NCBI RefSeq assembly: GCF_020520425.1
Contig: NC_079487.1
Coordinates: forward strand, 108,410,141-108,474,140
Reading direction: 5' to 3'
DNA from: Spinacia oleracea
Taxonomy: Eukaryota; Streptophyta; Magnoliopsida; Caryophyllales; Amaranthaceae
Length of the DNA stretch: 64,000 bases
A program made the translations under genes and the position numbers. Under the pieces are notes generated by a model that saw only the letters and a list, made by a program, of their open reading frames with translations, had not been told where the DNA came from and ran no database searches. Of this stretch, positions 15,230-63,913 are shown piece after piece; within the stretch, counting starts at the first letter, position 1; every line of letters begins with the position of its first letter.

Positions 15230-17069
15230 AGAAAACACCAAAACGTTACATGCTTAACAAGCTACAAAGATCAAGTGGACTACAAGAAGTTGGAGGGGAG
15301 CCGAGATACAATCTGGGCCCCCACTCCTCTAGCTATGGCGAACCCGATCCTGCTGAAAATGTGGGCAGCAGCCCGTGCCCCAATGATACTTATCCTGCTT
15401 CCGCTGCGCTGCAACCGCCACAAACCGACCCGGAACGAAGTCTGAGAACCTAGATTGCGTCATAGGTGAAGACCCAGTCAAGTCAACACACATCTACACC
15501 GCCATCCCAAGAATAAAGCAATATATCTGCAGGACGAAGAGCTCCATCACTCTCACTAGTCAGCCCAACATCAACCTCCATGCGAGCAGAAATCCCCGAC
15601 CGATAGCAAATATCCAAAAGGGTATCACGGACAACATTATGTCGATGTTAATACCCACAATCCCAGCACAAGACACGGCATGATCCCCATAAATGTCCCC
15701 ATCGAAAACCCGAGAGCAAGCAGAACACGTCGTAGAATCAGAGAACAACGGAATACCCAACCGATAGCAAAAAACCGAACGATAAGTCTTACCGTTCATA
15801 GTCTGGCCTAAACCTGAGATGGGGACTGCCCGCAACCAAGCTGAGGAGTGATCCCCCTGCTGTGATTTCCATAGGGAAACCTGAGGTGAAGATAAGGAGT
15901 AGGCGGATTCCGCATCAGCAGTAACCTTCGTTAAATATATGTCTGCCAATTTCTTCATGAGTGTGGGGGCAGCGATATCACTAGGGCTACTCATAAGGTC
16001 GGTCTCCACGGTGCTATTGAAAAGACCAAGAGCATCATCAAAGGCCGATCCCGAACCATCAACACCTGAAAGCCGAAGAAGCGAATACTGCAAACCAGAA
16101 GACTGCAAACGGGATGCAAGAAAACCATAATGCCGAACATCACCAGCCGAATAAACACCCAATCCTCCATAAGAATAAGGCAAGGTGGCAAGACGCCATT
16201 GCCAGTCACCGAACCCAGGTCCCGAAGCAGTCACGATACGCTCCAAAGAAGCCCGAAGAGCCACATCAAAAGATAATTGGGCCGCTTCGAAAAGATGAGG
16301 CGGACAAGTGCGCATAGCAAAGTAGAGTTTAGAAACTCCTGTACACGCACGAAGAAGCAACAACTCACACTGGGGATCATTAAGCTTAGTTACAACATCC
16401 ATCAACACAACAGTCTTCGACACACGCTGCGAAACCAACTCCTTACAAAAAGAGGAATCCGTACTGACTGGACCACCAAGCAACTTAACACCAAGCGCAG
16501 GACGAGCAATATCCGAAGGAAAGACACCTTCTAGACGACTGCGTGGGTCTTCCGAAGGCCAGAAACCCTCTGTCTTCTCAACATTAACATGGAGACCTAA
16601 ATGAGGACCCTCCTCCAAAATCAACTCCAAGACCTTTCCAACCACCAAAGTGTCACCAACGATAGTGCCATCGTCCAAGTACCAAGCCTGAAGAGATAGA
16701 TCAAAAGAGTCTCTGATTCGACATACCAATGGATGTAGAACCAGAGAAAAAAGCAAAGGACCGAGAGGGTCCCCTTGCTGCACACCTTGACAAGACCACA
16801 AGGTATGCTCCCCATAATACAGCCGCGCTGGAGAAGAGTAACATAATTCAACCCAACGCGAAAGAGCAGGATAATGTAGCCGAACCTCACGCAACAAAGC
16901 CGATCGATCAACTAAATTGAACGCATTCTGAAAATCCACCAATAACATAGAGAGGCCAACATCAGCCCCACGAGCCTCAACCAAACGATTGACAGCATGA
17001 AGAATGGCCTCACCACCTGCTGGAACTCCAACACCAAACTGAAGCCCTCCTAAATAGGTTCCTAAACGC

Positions 17070-17070
<1 letters not shown>
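15230..17070 (-). mobile_element. (TTA)n-associated non-LTR element, copy 1, 5'-truncated
   Basis: It matches copy 2 (17123-21115) closely. It starts at the common 3' terminus (GTTTTCTTAT junction on minus) and stops abruptly at 17070, corresponding to about 19087 of copy 2, where it meets another (TTA)n run. A common 3' end and variable 5' end are hallmarks of target-primed reverse transcription. About 122 bp present in copy 2 (about 17280-17401) is missing after 15384. Its base composition is clearly more GC-rich than the neighbourhood. Confidence 0.85.
15560..16984 (-). pseudogene. Reverse transcriptase/CCHC part of copy 1
   Basis: The open stretch (474 codons) covers the palm and thumb of a non-LTR reverse transcriptase: LLVDFQNAFN (motif A), QQGDPLGPLLFS (motif B) and AWYLDDGTIV (motif C, catalytic DD near 16670-16675), then a CCHC knuckle (C-X2-C-X11-H-X4-C). 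Motif C is intact here, unlike in copy 2. A one-base deletion near 15650 relative to copy 2 throws the last part out of frame before the nuclease domain. The upstream fingers region is lost by 5' truncation. Confidence 0.85.

Positions 17071-17122
<52 letters not shown>
17071..17122. repeat. (TTA)n microsatellite between copies 1 and 2
   Basis: About 50 bp of TTA joins the truncated 5' end of copy 1 to the 3' end of copy 2. Confidence 0.95.
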
Positions 17123-17173
17123 GAGAAAACATCAAAACGTTACAAGCTTAACAAGCTACAAAGATCAAGTAAA

Positions 17174-20100
17174 CTACAAGAAGTTGGAGGGGAGCCGAGA
17201 TACAATCTGGGCCCCCACTCCTCTAGCAATGGCGAACCCGATCCTGCTGAAAATGTGGGCAGCTGCCCGTGCCCCAATGTCTTGAGCCCTGGAGTACGTC
17301 TGGACCCGCTTCAGCAAAGAAACAGCCCCTTTCTCTAATTCCCCAAAAGAAGAGAAGGAAAAAGGAAAGAAACCGTAACCCAAATCCCTACAACGTGCCG
17401 CATACTTATCCAGCTTCCGCTGCGCTGCAACCGCCACAACCCGACCCGGAACGAAGCCTGACAACCCCGATTGCGTCATAGGGGAAGACCCTATCAAGTC
17501 AACACACACATCTAGACCGCCATCCCATGAATAAAGCAATATATCTGCAGGACGAAGAGCTCCATCACCCTCACTAGTCAGCCCAACATCAACCTCCTTG
17601 CGAGCAGAAATCCCCGACCGATAGCAAATATCCAAAAGGGTATCACGAACAACATTATGCCGATGTTTGATACCCACAATCCCAGCACAAGACACGGCAT
17701 GATCCCCATAAATGTCCCCATCAAAAACCCGAGAGCAAGCAGAACACGGCGTCGAATCAGAGAACAACGGAATACCCAACCGATAGCAAAGAACCGAACG
17801 ATAAGTCTTACCGTTCATAGTCTGGCCTAAACCTGAGATGGGGACTGCCCGCAACCAAGCTGAGGAGTGATCCCCCTGCTGTGATTTCCATAAGGCAACA
17901 TGACGTGAAGATAAGGAGTAAGCGGATACCGCATCAGCAGTAACCTTCGTGAAATATATGTCTGCCAATTTCTTCATGAGTGTGGGGGCAGCGATCTCAC
18001 TAGGGCTACTCATAAGGTCGGTATCCACGGTCCTATTGAAAAGACCAAGAGCATCATCGAAGGCCGGTCCCCGACCATCAACACCTGAAAGCCGAAGAAG
18101 CGAATCCTGCAAACCAGAAGACTGCAAACGGGATGTAAGAAAAGCATAATGCCGAACACCACCAGCTGAATAAACACCCAATCCTCCATAAGAATAAGGC
18201 AAGGTGGCAAGACGCCATTGCCAGTCACCGAACCCAGGTCCCGAAGCAGTCACGATACGCTCTAAAGAAGCCCGAAGAGCCACATCAAAGGATAATTGGG
18301 CCGCTTCGAAAAGATGAGGCGGACAAGTGCGCATAGCAAAGTAGAGTTTAGAGACTCCAGTACACGCACGAAGAAGCAACAACTCACACTGGGGATCATT
18401 AAGCTTAGCTACAGCATCCATCAACACAACAGTCTTCGACACACGCTGCAAAACCAACTCCTTACAAAAAGAGGAATCCGAACTGACTGGACCACCAAGC
18501 AACTTAACACCAAGCGCAGGACGAGCAATATCCGAAGGAAAGACACCCTCTAGACGACTGCGTGAATCCTCCGAAGGCCAGAACACCTCTGTCTTCTCAA
18601 CATTAACATGGAGACCTAAATGAGGACCCTCCTCCAAAATCAACTCCAAGACCTTTCCAACCACCAAAGTGTCACCACAATAGTGCCATCGTCCAAGTAC
18701 CAAGCCTGAAAAGATAGATCGAAAGAGTCTCTGATTCGACACACCAGTGGATGTAGAACCAGAGAGAAAAGCAAAGGGCCGAGAGGATCCCCTTGCTGCA
18801 CACCTTGACAAGACCACAAGGTATGCTCCCCATAATACAGCCGCGCTGGAGAAGAGTAGCAGAATTCAACCCAACGCGAAAGAGCAGGACAATGTAGCCG
18901 AACCTCACGCAACAAAGCCGATCGATCAACTAAATTGAACGCATTCCAAAAATCCACCAATAACATAGAGAGGCCAACATCAGCCCCACGAGCCTCAACC
19001 AAACGATTGACAGCATGGAGAATAGCCTCACCACCCGCTGGAATCCCAACTCCAAACTGAAGCCCTCCGAAGTAGTTTCCTAAACGCGGACCAATCAAAG
19101 CAGCCCCGACCTTAGAAACAAGGCGCCTCCAAATAGTGCCCACAGCAATAGGCCGAATACCACCACCAGGCTTAACAAGTGGCGTAAGAGGAGCACTAGC
19201 AATATATCCTCCAAGCTCACCAGGACACTTTCCAGCAAGAAAAAGATTAACTCCCTGAGTAATAGCATCCACCAACTCATCAGAGACAGCTACAGCAGCA
19301 CCACCCAAGCAATCCAAAAAGTGTTGAGCACGCAAGCCATCTCTACCGCACGAAGTACCCCGCGGAAAGCCCCTAATCTGCTCCAGCACAACAACGGAGG
19401 TAGCAGTAAGGTGATGATCAACAGGGATATCCGGTAAGGTAGGTACCGGAAAGGAAGGGTGCTTTGCTTGCAAATCTGCCAGAGTAGCATCACTGTAAGG
19501 GGCAAGACCTGAGGACGAAAGAACTCTAACAGCAGCAGTGTAGTGACCGTCAGAAATCTTTCTCTTGCATTGCTTAATATTACGCTCCGCCAAATCCTGG
19601 TCTTCGTCAACATCCAATGGAGATACGCTAGCCAATGTGTCGATGACAAGTTGCTCAAAACCACCAGGCTCACCCCAAGAACGAATAGCAGAGGTGATAC
19701 TCTCTTCCTGTCGTCGCCGCCTAACACCAGAGGAACACTCACGATTACTTCGCGGAGAAAAAGTCGAGAGCACACAAAGAGGAAACACGAGCAACTGAAC
19801 CCAACAAGCGATGTCATCTGGTCTGCAAATCACCTTATCAAGCGCCCCTTTTAGAACTCGCGAAAAACCCAAACGACATTTGGGAGGGATGGATTTCACA
19901 GTACGCAACCGCTTAGACAATAAAGTGTCTAGAAGAGCAACATCAAAAGAAAAATGATGTTCTCGAGGCGCATCAGAAGAAGACAGCTCGGCAGTAGGAG
20001 CTTGAGGGTTTTGAATACCGTAGAGAATAAAACGAATAATACCATCCCTAGAATTAGGTGGGTCCACAAAAACAGTACTAGACCCACTGCCATGTCGACA

Positions 20101-20358
20101 CCTAGTACGATGAGTATGTGTCTTGAAACAATCTCCACACAGCCAAATTCCCATATGACGAAAGGTCACCTCAGCCGTAGAAAAAACCTGCAAATTGGTA
20201 GTAAGGGAATGACGGGTTACATCCCGCACACCAGAGCAACAATGACGATCCCGTAAGTGAGTGATCAGAGAACTCCTTACCATACCACGCCCACCTCCAT
20301 CCTGGCATCCGCTAAGACCCACAATAGGGCAATGAAACTTCTCCACGGAAGCCGCCAT
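17174..20358 (-). pseudogene. Single-ORF retroelement protein: zinc fingers, RT, CCHC, restriction-like nuclease; one frameshift
   Basis: It starts at ATG 20356-20358 (MAASVEKFHC) and ends at TAG 17174-17176, about 1060 codons. N-terminal zinc-finger-like residues are C10, C18, H34 and H39, with a second Cys/His cluster around residues 74-89. Then come the reverse transcriptase (SAPLTPLVKPGGGIRPIAVG, QFGVGIPAGGEAILHAVNR, QQGDPLGP, YLDD), a C-X2-C-X11-H-X4-C knuckle, and a block with RHNVVRDTLLDICYRSG, RPADILLYSW and CVDL followed by KLDKYA, which looks like the PD-(D/E)XK-type nuclease of R2-like elements. Relative to copy 1, one base is missing near 18677, just after the YLDD codons, so the frame breaks there. 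Otherwise both halves are open (572 and 547 codons), implying a young insertion. Confidence 0.8.
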
Positions 20359-21115
20359 ATCAAATCACTTCAACCAAAAAGTAACACCAACGTACCCACT
20401 ACCAACCTCAACGATCACTTGCCGGAAAACCGAACAACAACTGCCGAGACAAGCTAACAACAAGGCATAGCAACAAGACAATTTAGCAAATGACAAGCCG
20501 TGAGATTATGGAGCAACTCCCAAAGAGGTCGTGGTTTGGTGGTCCACAAACGCCCACAACAAACAGCGAACACCCGTCGAAACAGCAAAGCACAAATCAA
20601 ACGAACAAAATGTGACACCACCCAAAACTGCAACCGTCCAAAACTCAGCAACCACCCTGCACCAACACAGCAACTGTAACCGCAAGACAACCACCGAAAC
20701 ACCCACACACCAACGCATCAACCGCCCACACACCAACACAACAACCACCGAAACTCCCGTCGAAACTGAACAACACCACAAACAGAACGATCGAATCAAA
20801 AGAACCACCGCAACCGAACGAACAACAGCACCGTATTAATTCAAACTGAAAAACCCAACTGCACCAGAATTTACCACGAATAGCGCCTGATCGGAATACG
20901 CACCCGTAACCGCCTGAGAAACCACCCGAAACTGCACCAAAACTGCACCCGTAACCGCCTGAGAAACCACCCGAAACCGCACCTAAAGCACCCTGAAACC
21001 GCCGTCTAACCTTCACCTAAAGAATCGTCGTCGGAATAGCCTTGTATGTCGCCGGAATATTGACGTGGAGCCCCTAATCGCCCATAATACGAACCCTAAT
21101 CGTACCGGAAAGGAA
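20359..21115 (-). promoter_or_regulatory. 5' leader of the non-LTR element, with internal tandem repeats
   Basis: It is rich in ACCACC/GAAAC words on the plus strand. A block of about 44 bp (CGTAACCGCCTGAGAAACCA onward) occurs twice in tandem at about 20905-20985. It has no stable coding frame that I trust. By position it should contain the element's internal promoter or 5' UTR, but no motif proves that. Confidence 0.45.
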
Positions 21116-31830: not shown

Positions 31831-32638
31831 TGTTGGAAATCCTAGTGAGAAAACAAAAGAAAATGAGTGGGAAAATGTGGGAATATGAAAAGTCCCACAT
31901 GGGAAAAACACAAACCATATTCAATGTTTATATTTGGGGGTTTGAGGGAAACATTTGTTTAAGAAAGCATGTGAGTGGCATGGGTGGTCACAACACACAC
32001 ACGCGCGCGCGCGCCGGGCCGGGCTCGGGCGAGGGCCGTGGGCCTTGGTACTTGGTACTTGGTACTTGGTACTTGGTACTTGGTACTTGGTACTTGGTAC
32101 TTGGTACTTGGTACTTGGTACTTGGTACTTGGTACTTGGTACTTGGTACTTGGTACTTGGTACTTGGTACTTGGTACTTGGTACTTGGTACTTGGTACTT
32201 GCGGGCGTGGGGTGGGTTTTGTGGGAAACTGCTCCATTAATCACGTCATTACTCCCCACTAGCCGTTTTATGACTGTTGCAGTTCCCCATTACTCCCGTA
32301 ACTTCTCCACTAGCCGTTTTTTGCTGTTACAGCTTCCCAAAAGCCTCACTATAAATTCATCGTTCATTTCCACAAAAATATACAGAAACTTACAATCACA
32401 TCTCTCTCTCAAATTCCTCTCTTTCTGGGCAAATATTCTGGTCTCCAATCGGGGATTGTGAGTGCACATAATTCTCGGTGTCGTGTAAACCCTGGAGGGC
32501 AACCGCAAGCGTTCTACTGCATCGGAGGTAGCGCGAAATTGTCTTTTAGAGCAGTGGTCCGGCCACGGCACGACAATTGTTTCAGTTCGTATTACGCAAT
32601 ATCCAGTTAAGTCGTTCCAATTACTTATTTAGCTAACA
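31831..32638 (+). mobile_element. Solo LTR, 808 bp, carrying a 7-bp minisatellite
   Basis: It starts TGTTGGAAATCC, ends TTTAGCTAACA, and is flanked by perfect 5-bp repeats TGGAC (31826-31830 and 32639-32643). Promoter-like CACTATAAATTC lies near 32348. No internal region or second LTR is present, so it is a recombination product. The repeat at 32045-32200 is inside it. Confidence 0.9.
32045..32200. repeat. Minisatellite (TTGGTAC) x 22, perfect
   Basis: Twenty-two consecutive, essentially perfect heptamers. Because 7 is not a multiple of 3 and the unit lacks stops in any frame, it creates long open frames on both strands (LGTWYLV and TKYQVPS repeats). These should not be taken as genes. Confidence 0.98.
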
Positions 32639-33092: not shown

Positions 33093-33701
33093 TCAATACT
33101 TAAGGACCGGAATGATTTTAAGTGGCTTAGTTTTTTGTAAAGCAATCCCAAATTTCTCATCCATGTCTAAATCTTTCGGATTCACACCTTGTTGGAGCTT
33201 CCAATTGAAAAATTGGAGAAGAGTAGCTAACATCAAAGTTAACATTCTAATTGCCAGATTCATTCCAGGGCATATCCTTCTTCCAGCTCCAAAAGGCAGG
33301 AGTCCGAAATCTCTTCCTTTCACATCCACATCGGATCCCAAAAACCTCTCAGGGGCAAACACTTCAGGGTTTTCCCAAACTTGAGGGTCTCTTCCAATCG
33401 CCCATAAATTAACAAGTATTTGTGCATCCTTTGGCACAATATAACCATATAGCTCAACATCAACATCTGCTTTACGAGGCAATAGAAATACGGTAGGTGG
33501 GTGTAGGCGCAATGTTTCTTTGATAATGGCTTGTAAGTAAGGTAGCTTAATAAAGTCTGATTCCTGAATTTGTTTATCCTTTCCCAAGACTTGCTCAATT
33601 TCTTGTTGGACTTTTTCCATCATCTCAGGATTTCTAATCAACTCTGCCATTGCCCACTCAAAAGTACTCGATGTAGTATCAGTCCCCGCATCAAAAATAT
33701 C
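33093..33701 (-). pseudogene. Orphan second exon of a CYP76AD1-like P450 (exon 2b)
   Basis: A 609-bp segment, identical in length to exon 2 of the complete gene at 40388-40996. It opens right after an intact AG acceptor (CCATAG|GAT), encodes 202 residues with the I-helix AGTDTT, the ExxR helix (KETLR), the PERF loop and the haem loop [10 protein letters not shown], and ends in a normal stop. Over the 185 residues from the internal Met I count about 16 differences from exon 2a, mostly conservative; no stop or frameshift. About 30 bp of upstream intron sequence is also recognisably related. No exon 1 is found between here and exon 2a: the space is filled by an LTR-element fragment and a LINE. 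Either it is a truncated duplicate, or an alternative last exon of the gene at 43390. Without exon 1 it lacks the membrane anchor and substrate-recognition half. Confidence 0.85.
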
Positions 33702-33849
33702 CTATGGTTAACAAATCATAATTAATATATGCAACATCATCAATACTATTATTTATTATATAGTATTTGGCAAGTAATTTTGCTTGGGATTTCTCCCCAA
33801 CATAAATCCTTCAAAACTTTTTTATTTGGGCTAAAAGGTAGATGGTTGT

Positions 33850-36089
33850 GGTCTTTGAGTCACGAGGCGACACTGAGTGAGCCTCGTTTGGTAGGCCTAT
33901 AGTGGACCTTTAATTTTAGTGGGCCTAGGGTGGACCTTTAATTTTAGTAGGCCTAGGGTGGACCTTTAAATTATCTTACTTTGCAAGCGTATTTAGTCGT
34001 TTCTTAAAATGTGCAAATAGCGTAGATTCAAAATGTTGTTTTTACCTTATTGAAATTTAACGAAAGAATTACATCGAAAATAATTTTTTACAGTTCCCGG
34101 GATTTAATTGGAAGTTGTGATTTAGACTCGAACTTTCATTAATCTTTCTGATTATAACCCGTGTATGAATACAAGGAGGTGGCCTAGACTCAAAATAATG
34201 ACGTGGCGTAAGCCTATAATACTTGACCAAGCGACTCTCAGACTTAGGCTAATTAGACCATAACTTTCGTTGGTTGACACTTCAGATTTTAACCCTTGGG
34301 TGTTCATTTGTCATGCGCCATTTTGCTTAATATTGGCAAGGTAGTTAATTGGGGAGATCGAATTTTTATTTTTGCAAGGCTAGAATCATTAGTGCGGCTT
34401 CTCTCTTAGTGTGTATTGCTTTACCCCAATGGTAGCCTTATGGTATGCCGATTTGGGTATTTTCATGGTTGGTCATGTTGCATTCATGGAAAATCTTTTA
34501 GTCCGTACTTAGTAGTATTTCGGGGAGCGAGTGACTCGAGAGGACTATGACAGTCGTGACCCAATGTGATTATAAGCCTCGAGGCCATTAATTTTTTCTT
34601 TGCCAATGGTATTGACACCTTAGGTTCACTTTGGGGGTTGTGCGACTGTGGGGGAACGATTTCCATTATGTGACTGTTTCCATTTTGCAAATACGATAAT
34701 ACATTATTTTTATTGGTGAGAGAGAGTATTGAGACCGTGGATTCTTAGCAAGGGATGACAATTACATATGGGTGCTTATTGATTTAAATGTTAGGAGGGG
34801 AGACTCAATATGGCTTAACCTTTTAACTTGCAGAACGACACCAAGCATTGGGACCGATTCTATGGATAAGACAACTAAGACTTAGGATTTAGATTGTGCT
34901 TTGGCATAGCCTAGTCTAGACTCGGATTTATTTTTTTATTCGAACATTATTATTCTTGAAGACTCTATTTGAACATTATTTTTTGAATACATTGCCCATG
35001 TGACATTCAAGGTCGTTTAATTAGCATGCTCGGTTTTGGTGCCGAGCATTGTCGTCGTAGGAGGCCTAACAATGACACAAAGAGTTATTTATTTTTTATT
35101 TTTTTTAGTCGCTTTTGGAATCGAGTGCTTTTTCATACGCCCTCGTAGCAAAAAAATTTCGAAAAGTTTTTTTTTTGCTACGTATTTTCTTCATGCGTGG
35201 GCACCGAGGCTGCTGTGCCTGACCAAAAGGCCAGGCAGCAACTTCAGCGCCCAGGGTAGGGCGTGAGAAATTTCGGCGCCCAGCCAGGGGCGTTGAAAAT
35301 GCGTCCCTGGCTGGTTCTCGTTTTCTGTTTGCGTCTACTTCTGTTTATGCGACTTCGATTTTGCGTGCTTGCCTAATAACGTCCTTTACGCGTAGCAGCG
35401 TTTGTGGGATTCGTTACAGGCCATCCCGAGCGTCGCTTATTTTTGTGGCGATCATTCGGGTTTGCGGAACACGTATTTCGGTAAAACTCTTTGGCAAATT
35501 AGTCTATGAATGTTTGGGCAATTTTTAAGGTCGTTGGTTTTCTAGGATAGTTTGTCGTACACAATCACATATTTCGCTACACATAACTACATTACAAACA
35601 TGGATTTGAAAATTAAATATGCCACATAGTTTATGATAGGCTTCTATGGGTAGTTTATTTGCGCCTGGCTTGGTACCGCTTCTATCGTAGATCCAACACA
35701 TGCCCCGGTCGAGGTAGTGTCTTCAGCAGACGAATTTCGCTCAAGAGGCCAACCCGCAAGTGCAAGCCAAGGGGGCATGCAGGCGAGAGGGACCTAATGG
35801 GCGAGCGATTGGGTTCGGGATAGGTGTACTACCTGCACAAGTACCGAGTGGGAAACATGCGCGGCGTATGCACCCCCCTATTGGCGAAAAAAGGTATCCT
35901 TAGTCCAAACTCCCGAGGGAGCCGAGATTCGTTATGCGGTTCTGCCCGTTCACATGAATATGCTGATTTTCAGGTCGTCCCAACTTGATGGGGAAATAAA
36001 CGTGGGGTAGGATCGTTTCACCCTTCGGCTATTTTGATTACCTACAAGCACGAGTATTTCCTTCACTATCCCCAGCGGAGTCGCCACTG
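33850..36089 (-). mobile_element. Internal (5' non-coding) part of an Ogre/Tat-type Ty3 element, truncated
   Basis: It continues directly from the LTR at 36090-37609. The primer-binding site TGGCGACTCCGCTGGGGA lies at about 36070-36087 on minus, a type used by Ogre/Tat elements. The rest has no reading frame longer than about 75 codons. It contains the CGCCCAGG...CTGGGCG palindromic words (about 35245-35315) also found in the LTR. The left boundary near 33850 is approximate; gag-pol and the second LTR are missing. Confidence 0.6.
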
Positions 36090-37609
36090 TGAGGGGGTCG
36101 AAAAAGCACGATGCTAATGCGTGACCTCGTCCCTCGTGGGTGTGACGATTCTTTTATTCAATCAAGTGTAATTGGATTTCCTGTGAGTTTACACCCAATT
36201 GACTAGCAGTATAGGAGTCGCCATTCAGTTTTTAACGACAATGAGAAAAACTGACAAAACCCGGTTATCGTGACATAAAGGGAGTGCAATTATGTTTGAC
36301 CACGACGGCCGTAGGTTCCCTTGTGATCCCTGGTGTGGGGATCTCTCAACATACACCTGCAAGGTAGAGATTGAGGGTTCGGGGGACTGTAACTACCGAG
36401 AGGAGTACTTCACTCGTCGCTAACTCCAGAGGCAGGATATCCTTACTAGCTCAGCATAAATAATTGAAGGGACATGCGTTAACTATTAAACTTAACTGAG
36501 TTGATTTTAGCAATGTGCAACATATAATACTAATTCTATCGTGATTATCTGATTTAAACAGCATTAAGGGACCTAGCATGATAATCCGATTTCCCAAAAA
36601 TATTATATTTGTTAGGCGTGACAGAACAATCAGATTAGGTTAGTTTAACAGTTCATAAAAAGGGGCGAGGAAAGCAGTTAAATCATCGAAAAGGGACACA
36701 TTACGACGCACCCTTGAGAGGTGCTTCACGGTTCTCAGAAAACTAATCACTTTGACTTTTCTATTTCTCCTTTTTATTTAACGAATCTCAATTATGGGAC
36801 AAGATACGTTCTGTTCGATTTATGGATCGATTGCGACAGAACGCGTGAACAATTTCGCAGCGAGAGGCTTAGGCTAAGGGGTTTAGAGTCAATACTCAGA
36901 ATATAATTATGTGTTGTTGTGTGTGTTTTTCACGTCGAATTTAGGGGTCTATTTATAGGGGAGAGTTCGTGGAAAGATAGAATTGCAGAGTTCTAATCCA
37001 CAAAGAATTAGGAAAAAACACGTACCTAGGTATTTTCAGCGCCCAGGGCTGGGCGTCAAAGATTTCGGCGCCCAGCTCTGGGCGTTGAAAATAGGATCCA
37101 GGCAATTTCAGCGCCCAGGGCTGGGCGTTGAAATTGCTGTTTGGGCCATTTCTTTGTCAGATTCGGATTCCTGAAATCCGTAGAGTTTGAGATTAATTCG
37201 AGTCTTTTAGCGCGTATCAATTTTATGACGGAATGCGTCTGGGCCCGTTAAGAACTCTAGGCTCGTTAGGATTTTAATTAATACGTAACTCTTATTGCCG
37301 AATCCTATTAGGAATAGGATTCTCGCAGTTTTCTATCTCATTTAGGATTTATGTTGGAGTGCAACACCTAATTCTGACAGGTTTCTATCTTTTATGACTT
37401 GCCACTTTTAGAAGCTACCCTTTACGGCAGTTACTATTTTTAGCGGGTTTCCATAAATAGCAGGTTTCTATAAATAGCAGGTTTCGGGTGAAATGAAAAG
37501 GGGAATTGAGATTCGTTATTTTATAGGAGATGCGTTGTCAAGTGGAGATTTACGCTTTCATCATCGAACCTTTCCCTTTCGGGAATGGGGACAAAAGTAG
37601 GTGTCTACA
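36090..37609 (-). mobile_element. LTR of an Ogre/Tat-type Ty3 element, about 1520 bp
   Basis: On minus it begins TGTAGACACCTACTTTTGTC at 37609 and ends ACCCCCTCA at 36090, immediately followed by the primer-binding site. TG...CA ends and the TGTAGACACC start are typical of this clade. Near 37030-37130 the word GCGCCCAGGGCTGGGCG and variants repeat three to four times, each a short hairpin. It abuts LINE coding sequence at 37610, so it appears to have inserted into that LINE. Confidence 0.75.
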
Positions 37610-39480
37610 TCATAACTCTCATTCCAAAGACCAAGTGTCCTAAGAATGTGAGTGAATTTAGACCTATCTCCTGTTGTAACACCTTGTATAAATGTGTTAC
37701 CAAGGTCTTGTGTGGTAGACTTAGACAAGTTTTACCAGATCTCATTCTGGAGAATCAAGGGGGGTTTGTTCATGGCAGATACATTGTTCATAATATCATG
37801 GCGGTTCAAGACTTAGTAAAGCATTATGGCAGAAAAGGTGCTAAGCCAGGTTGCATGATGAAAATTGATTTGCAAAAGGCTTATGATACTGTAGATTGGG
37901 AGTTTTTACAGGAAATGATGAACCAGTTAGGCTTTCCAGGTGATTTTGTGGATCTTGTCATGGAATGTGTGACCACTCCAAAGTTCTCCTTAATGTTAAA
38001 TGGCACAATGCATGGCTTCTTCAAGTCTAAAAGAGGATTAAGGCAGGGAGATCCTATCTCTCCTCTCCTGTTTGTTCTTTGTATGGAATATCTTTCCAGA
38101 ATCCTCCATAAAATGAGTGAACATCACTTATTCCAGTTCCATCCTAGATTCCAAGGTATTAAACTCACCCACTTGTGTTTTGCTGATGATCTCATCATGT
38201 GTAGCAAAGGTGATTTTCCATCTGTCTATCTCATGCTGCAAGCTTTTAAGCTTTTTTCTGATTCTACTTGTCTTCTTGCAAACAAACACAAATCTGCTAT
38301 CTACTGTTGTGGTATGCCTGAGAGAGATTGTGCTAGAATTGTGAGTGTTTCTGGTTTCACCAGAAGCAATTTGCCCTTTAAATATCTAGGGGTGCCTATC
38401 TGTGCTAAGAGAATCTCTGCAGCTCAGTGTGATGTTTTAGTTGATAGGATGATTTCTAGAATTAAAATTTGGAGTTCTAGGAACTTGTCTTACACAGCTA
38501 GAGTGCAGCTCATAAATTCAGTTTTGCTTAGCATCCATATGTATTAGGCACAAATCTTCATTCTGCCCAAACAGGTGTTGCAGAATGTTAACAAAGTGTT
38601 CAGAGCATTCCTATGGAGTGGACAGGCTTACAGCAATAAGCCAAGCAACATCTCCTGGGATAGATCTTGTTGTGATAAGAAATATGGGGGTCTGGGTTTC
38701 AGAGATGTACTCAAATGGAACATAGCTAGTATGGGAAAGTATGTCTGGGCTATTGCTTCTAAACAAGATAATGTGTGGATTAAGTGGATTAATGCAGTTT
38801 ATGTAAAAGATGGGGATTGGTGGACTTATCAGCCTAAAGCTTCTGCTAGCTGGTATTGGAAAAGGATCTGTGCTATAAAAGAGATGCTCAAAGTAGTGTA
38901 TACTCAGGCAGAGTTTGTTGCTATCACTCACTATTCTGTGAAGGGTGTTTATGAGAAGATCATTGGTATAAAACCTCTGATTCATTGGGACTGTATGGTG
39001 TGGAATAGGTTAAACATTCCCAAGCATAGATTCATCTGTTGGTTAGCTGTGCAGGAAAGGCTCCAAACCACTGCAAAACTGGCAAGAATTGGTATATCCA
39101 ATTCTGCAACCTGTCTTCTCTGTGGCCAGTATGATGAGGAACACTCTCATCTGTTCTTTAATTGTCCTTACAGTAGCAGATGTATTATGGAACTTAAAGT
39201 TTGGCTGAATTTATCTGCTGTATCCTGTACTCTACTCCAACTATAGGGAGTGACAAGTCATGGTAGATTGACAAAATTCAGGAAGCAAGTTGTCTATGCA
39301 GCCTTGGCAGCAGCAGTGTACTTCATTTGGCATAGTAGAAACAACAGTTTTTGGAATGCTTCTGTCCCAACTGTGCAGCATGTGGTGAGTAAGATCAAGC
39401 AATCTGTAAAGGAGAGAATCTTGTATGTAATGCCTAAGAAAGTAAGTAGGAAGGATAGCTTATGGTTTATGAGCTTGTAA
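37610..39480 (+). pseudogene. LINE reverse transcriptase, zf-RVT and C-terminal part; two nonsense codons
   Basis: One continuous frame encodes the reverse transcriptase from the FRPISCCNTLYKCVTKVL segment through KIDLQKAYDTVDW (motif A), SKRGLRQGDPISPLLF (motif B) and LCFADDLIMCS (motif C, both aspartates present near 38180), then FKYLGVPI and a zf-RVT domain with LLCGQYDEEHSHLFFNCPYS. The frame is interrupted only by TAG at 38545-38547 and TAG at 39244-39246 and ends with TAA at 39478. It is therefore a much younger LINE copy than that at 4076-8955, but not able to make a full protein. Confidence 0.85.
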
Positions 39481-39607
39481 TGGCTTAGTTTTTCCTAGTT
39501 CTTTGGTGAAGGAGTCCAACCTACTTGGTTTGTTTCCCATTGAGCTAGTGTAGGTTGTAACTTGTTTGGGCATTAATATATTCCCTTACTTGCCTAGCAA
39601 AAAAAAA
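37610..39607 (+). mobile_element. L1-type LINE, 3' half, with A-tail
   Basis: It starts abruptly inside the reverse transcriptase at the LTR junction and runs to an A-run at 39599-39607. The 5' half (ORF1, endonuclease) is absent here, either separated by the LTR element and then deleted, or never copied. It lies between P450 exon 2b and exon 2a, on the opposite strand to them. Confidence 0.8.
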
Positions 39608-40387
39608 GGAAAACAACTTATAAACCAAACAAGACTTATATTTGACTCCAAGTCCGTTTCGTATTCTTGTCAACTTAACTAAGTTGTATTTAATTCCTAA
39701 CAAATAGAATATGCGAGATCGTGATAGCTTAATGTCGTTCCAACGTCACTTACTTGGGTTTTGTTCTCTTCATCTAGTCTAGTCTTATTTGTCTAGTTTT
39801 TGGTTTTATCTGTTCTGATTTTTTCTAGTGTGGTTTGTGAGAGCCTGATGTTTTCTATGAGTGTTTTTTGTTTTTCTTGTCTAGTCTAAATTTGCTGTTT
39901 AGGTCTAATAAGCAACAAGAAGAAAGTGAATAGAGCACAACCTGATTATGGACGTTTTTTTGAAGTTTATATTTATGTAGTGTTTAAGAACATACGAAGT
40001 AATTAGGTTCCATAGTTCCTTTCATTGTAAAGGTTGATTTTTCAGGTGGATACATACATCTCTATTGTATAAGCTAATTGTTGAGTACTTGGTGTCCCCC
40101 TTTAATTTGATATTCTTATGCATTTACTAACATACCAAATTTGTTAAAATATAATTTTTAGGAAAAGATCACCATTTCAAACTTAAAAAAGAAAAAAATC
40201 ATGTACCTATGCAATTACTCATATGCATAAACATTGTATCACATATTTTAGCATACAGATGAAATCAATAGAACTATGAACTCAATTTTTACTGCAAATT
40301 GCATAAAATAACATTTAACATAAACATAGTTGAATGTGATCTAACATGTAAGAAGCATTTAAGTTTTAGGCACCCAATTATGTTCAA
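39608..40387. other. 3' flank of the CYP76AD1-like gene
   Basis: It is AT-rich and should contain the P450 3' UTR on the minus strand immediately below 40388. No other gene was seen. Confidence 0.45.
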
Positions 40388-43300
40388 TCAATACTTTAGA
40401 ACCGGAATGATTTTAAGAGGCTTTGTCTTTTGTAAAGCAATCCCAAACTTTTCATCCATGTCTAGATCTTCCGGATTCATACCTTCTTCAAGCTTCCAAT
40501 TGAAAAATTGGAGTAGAGTAGCTAACATCAAAGTTAACATTCTTATTGCCAAATTCATTCCGGGACATATCCTCCTTCCAGCTCCAAAAGGTAAGAGCCC
40601 AAAGTCTCTTCCTTTTACATCTATTTCGGATCCCAAAAACCTTTCAGGTAAAAATTCCTCAGCATTTTCCCATGCTTGAAGATCTCTTCCAATAGCCCAT
40701 AAATTAACAAGTATTTGTGCATCTTTGGGCACAATATAGCCATATAGTTCAACATCAATGTCAGCTTTACGAGGCAAGAGAAATACTGTTGGTGGATGTA
40801 GCCGCAATGTTTCTTTAATAATTGCTTGCAAGTAAGGTAGTTTAATAAAGTCTGATTCCTGAATTTGTTTATCCTTTCCCAAGACATGCTCAATTTCTTC
40901 TTGAGCCTTTTCCATCATCTTAGGATTACGAATTAACTCTGCCATTACCCATTCAAAAGTACTTGATGTTGTGTCAGTTCCAGCATCAAAAATATCCTGT
41001 AATGCACAAATATATAGTCATAATTAGTTGATGCAACTACACAATCCAAGTATGTAAATATAGACATGCAATACATGTTCCCTCTAGATTTAAGCAGATG
41101 TCGGGCCGTATATAACTAATTGCAAGGCTCGCGGGCCTCGTCTCCTAAAGGGCCAACAAAAAAAAGTGTTGTCGAATCGGGCTCGTGCCACTCTTCTATA
41201 AATAAAGGTTATGCACGACATGTCTCACATATCTTGTTAGCAGGCCCGACCCTGAAACGATTCAAAATGGGATTGGGAACAAGGCCGCGGCCTCAAAGCG
41301 GCCCCAAGTTTAGATGAAAAATGAACATAAACCAAAACATCATTACACTATTTTCCAAACAGTTACCACGTGTAAAAAGTAGGGGTTTCCTTGTTTGTTT
41401 CTCATTCTTTGCTTTTATAGTTTTCCACTTTCCCATATAAGAGCAATTTCTTCATCCAGGACATCCACTATTCATCAACATTTTTTTTTTTTTTAAGAAA
41501 ACCACAACAACTACTATTGAAAAAAGGTCCTCATTAATATTGTTCTTTAAAAATAATTCGACAAAGTTTTGTTTAAAAGGGCTTATTTTGTAACGTTAGC
41601 ACAAGGCCTCGTTGGTATTTATGTTGGGCCTACTTGTTAGCGGGCTTAATTTTATAACTTTATGTTAATTGCTAGAAAATAAGTCCGTCCACGTGCAAGC
41701 CCAACCGTTATACTTGTGCCTAATTTCTAAAATGATACCCTTTTACGGATCATATCATGGATTTAAAATGGGGAGTCGTGTCGGACCAATCCATGTCGGG
41801 CTCGGACAGCCCATAAGCTAGCCTGGCCCTGGACCTTATTTGTTGTTGTATATTGCAAAAATGTAATGCATCCTCCCAAGTGAGTTTGGACTTCACCTTC
41901 TGTTAATACTCCGTAGGTTTTTTGTCCAAATTCACAATTCCAATATTTTCTCTCTCTACTTTTCAGTCCCTATCTACAGTGACATACAAATTGTCCAATT
42001 TTGTTATTTTTTCCGGAGCAAGAAAAAGGGTCTTCCATCTATCAGGCAAATATGCAAGGCATCACTATAGTACATTAGTACGTGCAAGTACTTTCTCCAT
42101 TTTAGATAATAAAACAAAATGGCTAATAAGTTCAAATAAAATAATGTAAACACTAATAAGTTAAGTTAAATGCTACGTAGTAGATTAAATAGGATAAGGG
42201 AAATTTATTTTTATGGTGCAAGATAAGTAGAATTGTTGTGAAGAGAATAATACCTTAACATGCATCAAATGTAATGTACGTAGTATTACGTAGTACATAG
42301 TACTTTATTCGGGTTCTCCAACTTTTATTAGAAGTAGTATTAATTTTAAATATGTTTTTAGTACGTATTATATAACTATTAACGTTCGTGATTACATTTA
42401 AACAATGATACATATGGATTTTTTTGAAGTAGGTTTATTTCTTCTAATATTGGCTACAATTTTACTGTACGACGTACGACTTACCACAAGGAGATGATTT
42501 ATCTCGCCCATACTGAGCTCATTGTGTTTGTGGAGGTCTAGAAGAATGTCTAGCACATCATCCGTCGCCGCTGTTGCTGCCGGTGCCGTTGCTGCGGTGG
42601 TTGTAGAATCACTACGGGCAAGCCTTTGAGTGATAATACCTTGGAAAACAGCAATCAACTTGTCAAAATTTGACGCCAATCGGCGTCGAATGCCTGATGG
42701 ATCTAAACAGCCTAAAATTGGAAAATAATCAGCATAATTAGGCTTCCCAATATCTTCCATAATGTTCCAAATAAGCTCTTTAAGCTGTTGACATTCATGG
42801 GATTTATGGTTGGCTAATTCAACTGAAAAGAATAGTTTTGATAACAAATTAAGGGAAGTAGTAAATGCAGCCTTGCCAATATCAACAGCTTCCCCCTTTT
42901 CAGCACATTCTTGTACGTACTGAAATAATTGTTGCACCTTGGCATGTCTAAGGGTTTGACAAGCATCAAGTCTTTGAGTAGAAAGTAAATGAACGGCTGT
43001 GATTTTCCTAAAGTTCCTCCACTTGGGCGAAACCGGCAACCACGACATGGTGAGTTTATGGTGGTCGCCTGCCGTGACAGAATTAGGAACAGTTCGGTTA
43101 GAAAGAGGGTTGTCTTTTTTTAGAAACATTTCTTTGGCAACTTCAGCTGAGGATACAACAATAGTTGTTACACTTCCTAGGCGTAGGGATATTAGAGGGC
43201 CATAAATTTTAGCAAGATCAGCAAATGATTGATGTGGTTTCTTACCAACTTCAAGAATGTTACCAATAATGGGAAGTGGTTTAGGACCTGGAGGAAGAAG

Positions 43301-43390
43301 TTTGGTAGTTTTGGTAGTAAATAACATTTTAATGAAATGAAAGAGAATGAACCAAATTGCAAGCATTATTGCTAGTGCAGCATGATCCAT
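40388..43390 (-). CDS. CYP76AD1: CYP76AD1-like cytochrome P450 (betalain pathway)
   Basis: Two exons: 43390-42485 (302 codons; donor GTG|GTAAGT) and 40996-40388 (acceptor TTACAG|GAT), intron 1488 bp in phase 0, 504 residues. The start at 43390 gives [13 protein letters not shown], a hydrophobic ER anchor, then the proline hinge [14 protein letters not shown] (about 30-43). Exon 2 has the oxygen-binding AGTDTT (307-312), ExxR (E364/R367), PERF (419-422) and [10 protein letters not shown] with haem-ligand Cys446. Length matches beet CYP76AD1 (about 497), differing mainly by an Ala/Thr-rich insert near residues 272-284. Known family role: hydroxylation of tyrosine to L-DOPA and oxidation of L-DOPA to cyclo-DOPA, the route to red betacyanins, in the ER membrane. 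I recognise it as alpha-clade from overall resemblance; activity is inferred. The gene appears fully functional. Confidence 0.93.
40997..42484 (-). other. Intron of the CYP76AD1-like gene
   Basis: It is bounded by GTAAGT and CAG. The middle (about 41095-41830) contains GC-richer words such as GGGCC and TCGGGC, suggesting one or more old hAT-like insertions with degraded ends. No coding sequence was found. Confidence 0.75.
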
Positions 43391-50486: not shown

Positions 50487-51673
50487 GGGAAACCATCAAA
50501 ACGTTACAAGCTTAACAAGCTACAAAGATCAAGTAAATTACAAGAAGTTGGAGGGGAGCCGAGATACAATCTGGGCCCCCACTCCTCTAGCTATGGCGAA
50601 CCCGATCCTGCTGAAAATGTGGGCAGCTGCCCGTGCCCCAATGTCTTGAGCCCTAGAGTACGCCTGGACCCGCTTCAGTAACGAAACAGCACCTTTCTCT
50701 AATTCTCCCAAAGAAGAGAAGGAAAAAGGAAAGAAACCGTAACCCAAAGCCCTACAACGTGCCGCATACTTATCCTGCTTCCGCTGCGCTGCAACCGCCA
50801 CAACCCGACCCGGAACGAAGTCTGACAACCCAGATTGCGTCATGGGGGAAGACCCAGTCAAGTCAACACACACATCGACACCGCCATCCCAAGAATAAAG
50901 CAATATATCTGCAGGACGAAGAGCTCCATTACTCTCACTAGTCAGCCCAACATTAACCTCCTTGCGAGCAGAAATCCCCGACCGATAGCAAATATCCAAA
51001 AGGGTATCACGAACAACATTATGCCGATGTTTAATACCCACAGTCCCAGCACATGACACGGCATGATCCCCATAAATGTCCCCATCGAAAACCCGAGAGC
51101 AAGCAGAACAAGGCGCCGAATCAGAGAACAACGGAATACCCAACCGATAGCAAAGAACCGAACGATAAGTCTTACCGTTCATAGTCTGGCCCAAACCCGA
51201 GATGGGGACTGCCCGCAACCAAGCTGAGGAGGAATCCCCCTGCTGTGATTTCCATAGGGCAACATGACGGGAAGATAAGGAGTGGGTGGATTCCGCATCA
51301 GCAGTAACCTTCGTGAAATATATGTCTGCCAATTTCTTCATGAGAGTGGGGGCAGCGATCTCACTAGGGCTACTCATAAGGTCGGTCTCCACGGTCCTAT
51401 TGAAAAGACCAAGAGCCTCATCAAAGGCCGACCCTGGACCATCAACACCTGAACGCCGAAGAAGCGAATCCTGCAAACCAGAAGACTGCAAACGGGATGC
51501 AAGAAAAGCATAATGCCGAACATCACCAGCTGAATAAACACCCAATCCTCCATAAGAATAAGGCAAGGTAGCAAGACGCCATTGCCAGTCACCGAACCCA
51601 GGTCCCGAAGCAGTCACGATACGCTCTAAAGAAGCCCGAAGAGCCAAATCAAACGATAATTGGGCCAAAACGA
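50487..51673 (-). mobile_element. (TTA)n-associated non-LTR element, copy 3, 5'-truncated
   Basis: It has the same 3' end as copies 1, 2 and 4. The 5' end breaks at the GGCCCAATT codons equivalent to about 18300 of copy 2. Seven bases (about 51667-51673) that are in neither copy 2 nor the microsatellite separate it from the next (TTA)n run, consistent with untemplated addition at 5' joining. Confidence 0.85.
50538..51672 (-). pseudogene. C-terminal part of the retroelement protein, open (CCHC and nuclease-like)
   Basis: About 377 codons are uninterrupted, from the AQLSFDLALRASLERIV segment to the shared C-terminus SRLPSNFL. It includes the C-X2-C-X11-H-X4-C knuckle and the RHNVVRD, RPADILLYSW and CVDL nuclease-like block. 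It has no start codon of its own; the apparent N-terminal poly-Asn is the microsatellite read in frame. The intact frame makes it the best copy from which to read the C-terminal domain. Confidence 0.85.

Positions 51674-51711
<38 letters not shown>
51674..51711. repeat. (TTA)n microsatellite between copies 3 and 4
   Basis: About 38 bp of TAT/TTA. Confidence 0.95.
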
Positions 51712-51712
<1 letters not shown>

Positions 51713-51836
51713 GGGAAAACACCAAAACGTTACAAGCTTAACAAGCTACAAAGATCAAGTGAACTACAAGAAGTTGGAGGGGAGCCGAGAAACAATCTGG
51801 GCCCCCACTCCTCTAGCTATGGGCCCCACTCTTCTA
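51713..51836 (-). mobile_element. (TTA)n-associated non-LTR element, copy 4, 3' stub only
   Basis: Only about the last 110 bp of the element (GAAAACACCAAAACGTTACA onward) is present, then a partial repeat of GGGCCCCACTC and the flank. It is a strongly 5'-truncated insertion. Confidence 0.85.
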
Positions 51837-61562: not shown

Positions 61563-61652
61563 AACAGGGAACCATCGACTTGAGAAGAAGCCGACGATCC
61601 AAGGTAGACACAGCGACTAACCTAGGAGACGAACTAGAGTTCCGGTCAAAAG

Positions 61653-62315
61653 ATGACCAACCCGGATGGAGAAACGCCGCAAACTAGAGGCGGTGATAAT
61701 CCACCGATCAAGAAAGACCTTCAATGTCCCATGCTTACATCGACAAACTACAGAGTTTGGGCGATCAGAATGAAAGTAATATTACGTGTCTATCAAGTCT
61801 GGGAGACCATTGAACCCGGGTCCTCAGACTCGAAAAAGAATGATATTGCAATAGCTTTGTTGTTCCAATCAATACCAGAAGCCCTAATTCTACAAGTTGG
61901 TGAACAGAAAACATCAAAGAAGGTGTGGGACGCAATCAAATCTCGACATCTAGGAGCTGACCGTGTGAGAGAAGCAAGGTTACAAACCTTGATGGCTGAA
62001 TTCGACAAATTGAAGATGAGTGATACCGATACTGTAGACGACTTTGCTGGGAAGATATCAGGACTGGTGTCGAAAGCAGCCTCCTTAGGAACAATCATAG
62101 AAGAGCACAAAATAGTGAAGAAATTCTTGACCGGTCTTCCTAGAAATAAATATATTCATATTGTTGCTTCACTCGAGCAGGTCCTAGACCTAAACACAAC
62201 AGGCTTTGAAGATATAGTAGGGAGATTGAAGGCATACGAAGAACGAGTAATGGATGAGACAAAGGAGGAAGACCAAGGGAAGCTCATGTATGCAAGTAAT
62301 AATAAACCACATTGA
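61653..62315 (+). pseudogene. copia gag (DUF4219/UBN2-type)
   Basis: It starts at ATG 61653 about 90 bp after the primer-binding site. The 220 codons contain the LTSTNYRVWAIRMKVIL segment and the long helical UBN2-type gag core (AIKSRHLGADRVREARLQTL, FLTGLPRNKYIHIVASLEQ). In intact relatives gag continues into the zinc knuckle in one frame; here it stops at 62313-62315 and the knuckle continues in another frame, so a small indel has split gag from pol. The gag core itself is undamaged. Confidence 0.85.
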
Positions 62316-63913
62316 GGAGGATAGGAGGGGACGCCGGTGGCCAAGGAAGAGGCAGTGGTGGTTATAGAGGTAGAGGAAAAGGCAGAGGACGAGGACGGTC
62401 CAACAGGCAATACCAGGAAAGAGAAACCACTGAAAATTATGACAAAGAAAAGAAGGACCTCTCTAAGATCCAATGTTGGAGATGTGACAAGTACGGTCAC
62501 TATGTGAACACTTGCCCTATGCGACCAAATCAAAACAAGGAGTCAAACTTATTAGAGACACAAGAAGCAGATGCACTCTATATGCATGAGATGGTGTTCC
62601 TAAACGAAGATAAACTATTCCCCAAGAAACTAGGTACAAACAAAGAAGACGCTGATGTTTGGTACCTAGATAATGGAGCTAGCAATCACATGACGGGGAA
62701 CAGAGAATCCTTCTCAACTCTAGATGAAACCGTCAAAGGAAAGGTGCGATTTGGAGATGGATCGTATGTGAAAATAGTCGGAAAAGGGTCAATTACCCTT
62801 GTGAGCAAGACTGGAGAGAAAAGAATACTCAAAGATATCTACTATATACCGGAGCTAAAGCACAATATAATAACCCTTGGGCAGGTAACTGAGCACGGAT
62901 GTGAAGTGATTATGAAAGGAGATAGCCTGTTACTCAAAGATCCAAGTGGATCACTACTTATGCAAGTGACAAGATCATCAAATCGCCTATACAAGACACC
63001 GATGAAAATATGTTACCCTAAGTGTCTTCAAATACAAGGAGAAGATCCTACCTGGACTTGGCATGCACGGCTGGGACATGTAAGCTTTGGAGCTATGAAG
63101 AATATGGTAGATAAAGAGATGGTAATAGGAATGCCATCTTCCCTACAAGAGAGAGATGTGTGCAGTGTGTGCCAAATCGGGAAGCAAACGAGAAAACCGT
63201 TCCCGAGTCAAGCTGGGTTTCGGGCAACACGTTCGTTGGAACTGGTTCATGGAGACTTGTGTGGGCCAATATCACCACCAACACCATCTAACAACCGATA
63301 TGTCTTTGTGCTAATTGACGACTTCTCAAGGTATATGTGGACAATGCTACTTAAGGAGAAGAGTGAGGCGTTTGATTGTTTTAAGAGATTCAAAGAATAT
63401 GTCGAGAAACAAACTAAGGCAACCATCAAGACCTTTCGTACTGATAGAGGAGGAGAATTCACATCAACGGAGTTTAATCGATTTTGTAAAGACAATGGAG
63501 TCAATAGGCATCTAACAACCCCTTATACACCACAACAAAACGGTGTAGTAGAGAGAAGAAACCGAACATTGATGGATATGACAAGGAGTCTACTCAAGGC
63601 AATGAAAGTGCCGAATCAATTATGGGGAGAGGCTGTGCGACACTCGACCTACATCATTAATCGCGTACCTACGAAGTCATTGAATGAGCAAACTCCATAT
63701 GAAAGCTTCACTTCCAAGAAACCCAATATCGAGCACTTGAGGGTTTTTGGTTGTGTTGCCTATGCGAAGATCAATGGACCAAGTCTAAAGAAGCTAGATG
63801 ATCGATCGAAGACTGTGATCAATTTGGGAACCGAGCCGGGCTCCAAAGCCTATAGACTTTATGACCCAATTGCAAGCAAAGTAATTGTTAGTAGAGATGT
63901 GATCTTTGATTAA
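62312..63913 (+). pseudogene. copia pol, N-terminal half: zinc knuckle, protease, integrase; premature stop
   Basis: After a Gly/Arg-rich stretch comes a CCHC knuckle (CWRCDKYGHYVNTC, from 62474), the aspartic protease (VWYLDNGASNHMTG), the GAG-pre-integrase HHCC region (WHARLGHVSFGAM, CSVCQIGKQTR), and the integrase core with its D-D-E residues in HGDLCGP, RTDRGGEF and GVVERRNRT. The frame closes at TAA 63911-63913 directly after VIVSRDVIFD, where intact relatives continue; the same frame stays open from 63914 to the window end. It is thus a nonsense mutation, not the natural end. Confidence 0.88.

Follow-up and report, generated by a model that had tools for sequence, protein, structure and literature searches.

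An intact last exon of a cytochrome P450 gene that stands without a first exon raises the question of whether it serves a neighbouring gene as an alternative last exon or is what remains of a gene whose first half has been lost. Such an exon, here called exon 2b (33701..33093, minus strand), lies in a 64,000-nucleotide stretch of the Spinacia oleracea genome, hereafter the window, downstream of a complete P450 gene of the same orientation, gene A. Most likely, exon 2b is a half-gene relic of an ordinary sort whose history is unusually easy to read, and use as an alternative exon has not been demonstrated for it.

Coding state of exon 2b

Gene A is read on the minus strand from exon 1 (43390..42485; 906 nt, 302 aa), which ends in phase 0 and is followed by GTAAGT, across a 1488-nt intron 1 (42484..40997) into exon 2a (40996..40388; 609 nt). 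As the original prediction had it, exon 2b is as long as exon 2a (609 nt including the stop, 202 aa), carries no stop or frameshift and keeps an intact AG acceptor (AACCATAG, then GATATT), with a phase that fits exon 1 of gene A; the protein identity, put at about 91% on that occasion, came to 185/202 residues (91.6%). The cytochrome P450 family PF00067 was matched by all three exons (249.8 bits for 2b, 233.8 for 2a and 102.4 for exon 1), and the top PDB match of each was 5ylw, the ferruginol synthase CYP76AH1. Both the Pfam score and the best three PDB scores were higher for 2b than for 2a, although by plain identity the two stand at 102 vs 101 to 5ylw and 95 vs 95 to 7x2q. A splice into 2b had been expected to supply a different haem-domain half, an idea that is weakened by the signature motifs, AGTDTT (at 5), KETLR (61), PERF (117) and an FxxGxRxCxG-type motif (137), which are the same in 2a and 2b. 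The set (A/G)Gx(E/D)T(T/S), ExxR, PERF and FxxGxRxCxG is given as P450 signatures in PMC10436450. The single relative in the prokaryote collection was a cyanobacterial P450 at 27%, and none was found in the viral_contigs collection.

The two second exons differ at 74 of 609 nucleotides, with 54 of the 74 at third codon positions, which yields 17 amino acid differences and 0 stops; random placement of the 74 would be expected to change ~50 amino acids (at least 37 in each of 5000 trials) and to create 2.7 stops. The dN/dS comparison proposed at the outset was run and indicated strong purifying selection, at 0.07-0.09 (NG86 0.068, bootstrap range 0.038-0.119; LWL85 0.092; YN00 0.091; ML 0.069), but it does not separate a relic from an alternative exon, since an exon that once belonged to a complete gene would show such a ratio as well. 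An exon that is open and evolves slowly, at a low dN/dS, is thus not in itself evidence of alternative splicing. Gene conversion between 2a and 2b was considered and rejected, as synonymous differences were not significantly clustered (the longest gap spans 21 codons; p 0.11 by permutation). The unspliced 2b frame is closed by a TAG at the acceptor, and the sole start left to it without an upstream exon is the internal Met18, which omits the first 300-odd residues, so that 2b probably makes no P450.

Ahead of exon 2b, 76 bases of intron 1b remain as a stub that includes the acceptor (33702..33777, minus), and the last ~62 bases of this stub are homologous to the end of gene A intron 1. In the comparison of the two loci this homology covered the final ~62-67 bases of the intron with a local score of 44 that none of 500 shuffles equalled, and with 250-base pieces the score was reached by 1/500 shuffles. 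Exon 2b therefore looks like a DNA-level copy, and an origin as a spliced retrocopy was rejected on the same homology at the acceptor. Between the 3' flanks of 2a and 2b, homology is weak at best, the score being reached by 23/500 shuffles at 250 bases and by 117/500 at 400.

A P450/DODA array and the place of 2b in it

P450 matches in the spinach genome sit on six contigs (C1-C6), and the 243,860 bases around the locus (C1:108340141-108584000) hold two exon-1 and three exon-2 matches at E 1e-4 or better. They form an array in the order gene C, gene A and orphan 2b, with all members on the minus strand. Gene C, like gene A, is complete, with open exons, a 634-nt intron and identities to gene A of 89.7% in exon 1 and 94.6% in exon 2; its distance is ~48 kb from gene A and 27 kb from the right edge of the window, beyond which it lies. 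An exon 1b was found nowhere in the 243,860 bases at E 1e-4, and a tblastn search for an exon 1 remnant within the window gave chance matches only, with E of at least 2.9.

Gene C is flanked by two DODA-like genes, both on the plus strand (L012, C1:108494661-108495851; L013, C1:108512428-108513844). Each has at least two exons, and the LigB domain PF02900 was detected in 3/3 exons tested of the four. DODA motifs were absent from the window and occurred at two places in the 244-kb region. Judged by sequence, this P450/DODA neighbourhood appears to be a betalain-type cluster. The spinach P450 genes look CYP76AD-alpha-like by their signature motifs, by the CYP76-family enzyme that is their nearest PDB match and by their DODA neighbours. 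Exon 1 of gene A carries W13, which fits the W13L numbering of beet CYP76AD1 used in PMC10436450. Spinach is capable of betacyanin production (PMC6128657), and in quinoa six CYP76AD1 gene ids fall in two QTL on A8 and A9 (PMC13339065). The portions available of PMC9847342, PMC10405137, PMC10436450, PMC11022794, PMC13339065, PMC8668906 and PMC6128657 contain no description of the present locus, and a literature search joining spinach genome, betalain and CYP76AD1 found no paper.

Synonymous distances place 2b outside the A/C pair, with YN00 dS values of 0.30 (2a-2c), 0.52 (2a-2b) and 0.62 (2b-2c) and NG86 values of 0.36, 0.62 and 0.72, respectively, and the 2b lineage would thus have split off before the A/C divergence, at a dS of ~0.5-0.7. 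Three-point omega was similar on all three branches (2a 0.054; 2b 0.072, bootstrap 0.033-0.130, on a branch that takes in the stem; 2c 0.082). In a tree of 11 exon 2s, all P450s of the spinach genome itself, the second exons of A, B (that is, 2b), C and a further copy, D, form a clade with support of 100/99, and A+C are joined at 100/98. The path from the base of this clade is shortest for 2b: the tip of 2b measures 0.051 and that of D 0.12, and for A or C the length is 0.056 plus 0.031 or 0.061.

Seven exon 2s of the same genome, 69-79% identical to 2b, served as outgroups (set aside were D, which is in the tree, L039 at 64%, and the other matches of a 150-match list), and their vote on the 17 differences between 2a and 2b favoured 2b at 11 sites and 2a at 4, with 2 undecided; in the comparison of 2b with 2c the vote was 12 to 4. 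Values of dN to the outgroup were lower for 2b than for 2a in 5/7 cases and higher in 2/7, and none of the single-outgroup tests was significant (p 0.057-1.0). Red beet CYP76AD1 may match 2a at ~8 and 2b at ~4 of the 17 sites, which would oppose the outgroup vote unless the B lineage is older than the spinach-beet split; no weight is placed on this comparison. Exon 2b is probably the most conservative exon 2 of the array, or at least has evolved no faster than the intact copies, and the vote that makes it less derived suggests that constraint probably acted on it over most of its past. At residues 106, 112 and 114, exon 2a has L, A and E where 2b and 2c have P, P and V, so that gene A is the odd one; the state of 2b is also that of 7, 6 and 5 of the seven outgroups.

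Copy D (L038, C5:72766880-72770329) consists of an exon 1, a 376-nt intron and an exon 2, with deletions that break both exons. D resembles 2b more than 2a, both in amino acids (88-89% vs 83-84%) and in DNA (86.8% vs 84.2%), and its 3' flank matches that of B (92 bp, E 8e-6), while no match to the flank of A or C was obtained at E 1e-3. Support for the 2b+D grouping is weak (65/38); if the grouping is real, the B/D ancestor possessed both exons.

Nested transposons at the broken end

From the end of the intron stub at 33778 onwards, the sequence belongs to transposable elements. An LTR retrotransposon, truncated at 33778, contributes its internal region (33778..36087, minus), which begins at 36086 with the PBS-like motif TGGCGACTCCGCTGGGGA; 36088..37609 (minus) is the 5' LTR of the same element, its 3' end placed by that motif. 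It is followed on the plus strand by a LINE fragment (37610..39607), identified by Pfam (RVT_1, zf-RVT) and frame, with one in-frame stop and a poly-A near 39607, the 5' part of which is missing, cut at the LTR border. Between the LINE end and exon 2a remain ~780 bases of gene A 3' flank. No LTR pair was found in 33093-41000, so the element has no LTR-pair date.

The internal region together with the stub was searched against the genome, with scoring limited to 40 of the 6723 candidates from the first look. Among these 40 other matches, 32 stop exactly at 33778, and the remaining 8 end at query 2269-2298 (6), 2311 (1) and 1943 (1). Seven copies were compared with their flanks: the match extends to 33778 in six of them and to 33819 in the seventh, and their continuations past 33778 are alike in 21/21 copy pairs (some over ~250 bases only), whereas the window goes into the intron instead, which shows the window's element to be cut at 33778. 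At the other border, 3/7 copies begin their match exactly at 37609, and a related LINE (window-equivalent 73306) continues beyond the point at which the window LINE stops; the LTR element therefore sits inside the LINE. Since the LINE 5' part and the element 3' part are both gone, a deletion, or an equivalent rearrangement, would have followed both insertions. One of its ends is just 76 bases away from exon 2b, which makes the lost stretch the best place for exon 1b. The LINE was not simply inside intron 1b, because the ~780 bases between it and 2a hold no exon 1.

Repeats of the GCGCCCAG/CTGGGCG type are common to the LTR and the internal region (35243-35312 and 37035-37147), and a promoter scan of a 111-base LTR piece was uninformative, its consensus being bacterial. 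Elsewhere in the window, a short tandem array of CCAAGTA-type units lies at ~32060-32200 beside GC-rich low-complexity sequence, long open frames at 15560-20364 and 50538-51737 (minus) apparently belong to another LINE family (RVT_1 in 2/4 frames scanned), and long, open Copia-type gag and integrase frames occupy 61638-63913.

The LINE runs over 543 codons with a single internal stop and without a frameshift, which sets its age at a 95% upper bound of 0.020-0.065 substitutions per site across the indel rates assumed, and the closest element copy among those scored is 93% identical; transposon dates of this kind are upper bounds only. On the exon side, if the derived residues in 2b number only 4-6, a neutral divergence of ~0.010-0.014 substitutions per site after the loss would fit (P 0.23-0.80), and at t=0.01 the chance of an intact frame is 0.23-0.56, again by assumed indel rate. 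Had 2b been neutral since t=0.035, 16.7 amino acid changes would be expected vs the 4-6 seen (P of at most 0.0025), and if the deletion were as old as the transposon upper bounds, 2b would be too well preserved for neutrality. The few derived residues thus mean either a very recent loss or continued selection on 2b, of which we favour a recent loss, because no mechanism of continued use is visible.

Readings of the locus and comparison with known systems

We consider it likely that the array once had a third tandem CYP76AD-alpha-like gene, gene B, of which the second half survives as 2b after a transposon-linked deletion. Gene B would have parted long ago from the A/C ancestor (dS ~0.5-0.7) and have been held under purifying selection as a working gene. 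A LINE would then have landed between A and B and an LTR retrotransposon gone into the LINE, before a deletion ran from inside the LTR element to 76 bases before 2b; lost with it would be the element 3' part, the LINE 5' part and, most likely, exon 1b along with the greater part of intron 1b, leaving a remnant too young for frame damage. No exon 1b fragment was found, and we infer both its former presence here and its removal by this deletion, as well as the present neutrality of 2b. The original prediction had named a recent loss of the exon's own exon 1 as the simpler alternative, and the fusion of transposon to intron and the few derived residues lend support to it. A third copy of a betalain-type P450/DODA cluster has apparently been disabled, with an order of events that can be read from nested transposons, and 2b, seemingly the least derived of the three exon 2s, matters for CYP76AD comparisons across the relatives of spinach.

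The transposon fusion also bears on an unlikely alternative, a partial duplication in which exon 2 and a piece of intron were copied alone, so that gene B never had an exon 1. Such an event would suit the 244 kb without an exon 1b remnant and the shortness of the detectable intron homology, but a lone exon would have needed a function over a dS of ~0.5, the short stub is already accounted for by the fusion at 33778, and a two-exon copy, D, is near 2b, although the 2b+D grouping is weak.

It is slightly more doubtful that 2b is an alternative last exon, reached from gene A exon 1 by a splice over 8.8 kb that skips 2a and yields a second P450 isoform. Orientation and phase are the same, the acceptor is intact, the pyrimidine content ahead of it equals that of 2a (0.55 each), and the omega of 0.07, the undamaged frame and the few derived residues all agree with such use; the constraint, however, is already explained by past membership of a complete gene. 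With the four signature motifs the same in 2a and 2b, a chimera of exon 1 and 2b would gain little, which leaves little functional reason for it. Moreover, 2a is a complete terminal exon and the first in line, and a transcript would have to read through it and through the ~5.8 kb of transposon sequence, including an antisense LINE, that separates 2a and 2b. A weak further point is that seven poly-A-like hexamers gave 0 occurrences in the 400 bases 3' of 2b and two each for 2a and 2c. That 2b lost its own exon 1 and was then adopted by gene A as an alternative last exon and selected is just as doubtful; if true, one pigment-pathway P450 gene would yield two enzymes whose haem halves are interchangeable, with transposons filling the intron between. 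Least credible of all is a complete gene B whose exon 1b was displaced by inversion or translocation or is missing by misassembly, an explanation to which the transposon-rich junction lends some colour and against which stand the plain transposon-intron fusion at that junction, the lack of an exon 1b within 244 kb and, per PMC8668906, the quality of the published spinach Monoe-Viroflay assembly (contig N50 ~23.8 Mb, QV 46.2).

The locus can be set beside several known systems. According to PMC9847342, CYP76AD-alpha-1 and DODA-alpha-1 of A. tricolor lie close together, like the spinach P450/DODA cluster. The spinach array resembles the CYP76AD-alpha clusters of Amaranthaceae in having two-exon P450s with the signature motifs beside DODA genes, and differs from them in that its terminal member is an exon 2 only. 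At human CYP3A, chimeric or intergenically spliced P450 transcripts reportedly occur; there, as here, P450s stand in tandem and in the same orientation, and compatible phases could let an exon 1 join an exon of the next gene, whereas in spinach the exon 2 halves are nearly identical. Half-gene relics left by transposon-linked deletion in tandem arrays are a generally known kind, and 2b is like them in that exon, acceptor and intron stub are kept and the other half is gone at a transposon junction; it differs in being unusually well preserved and, by the outgroup vote, less derived than any other exon 2 of its array.
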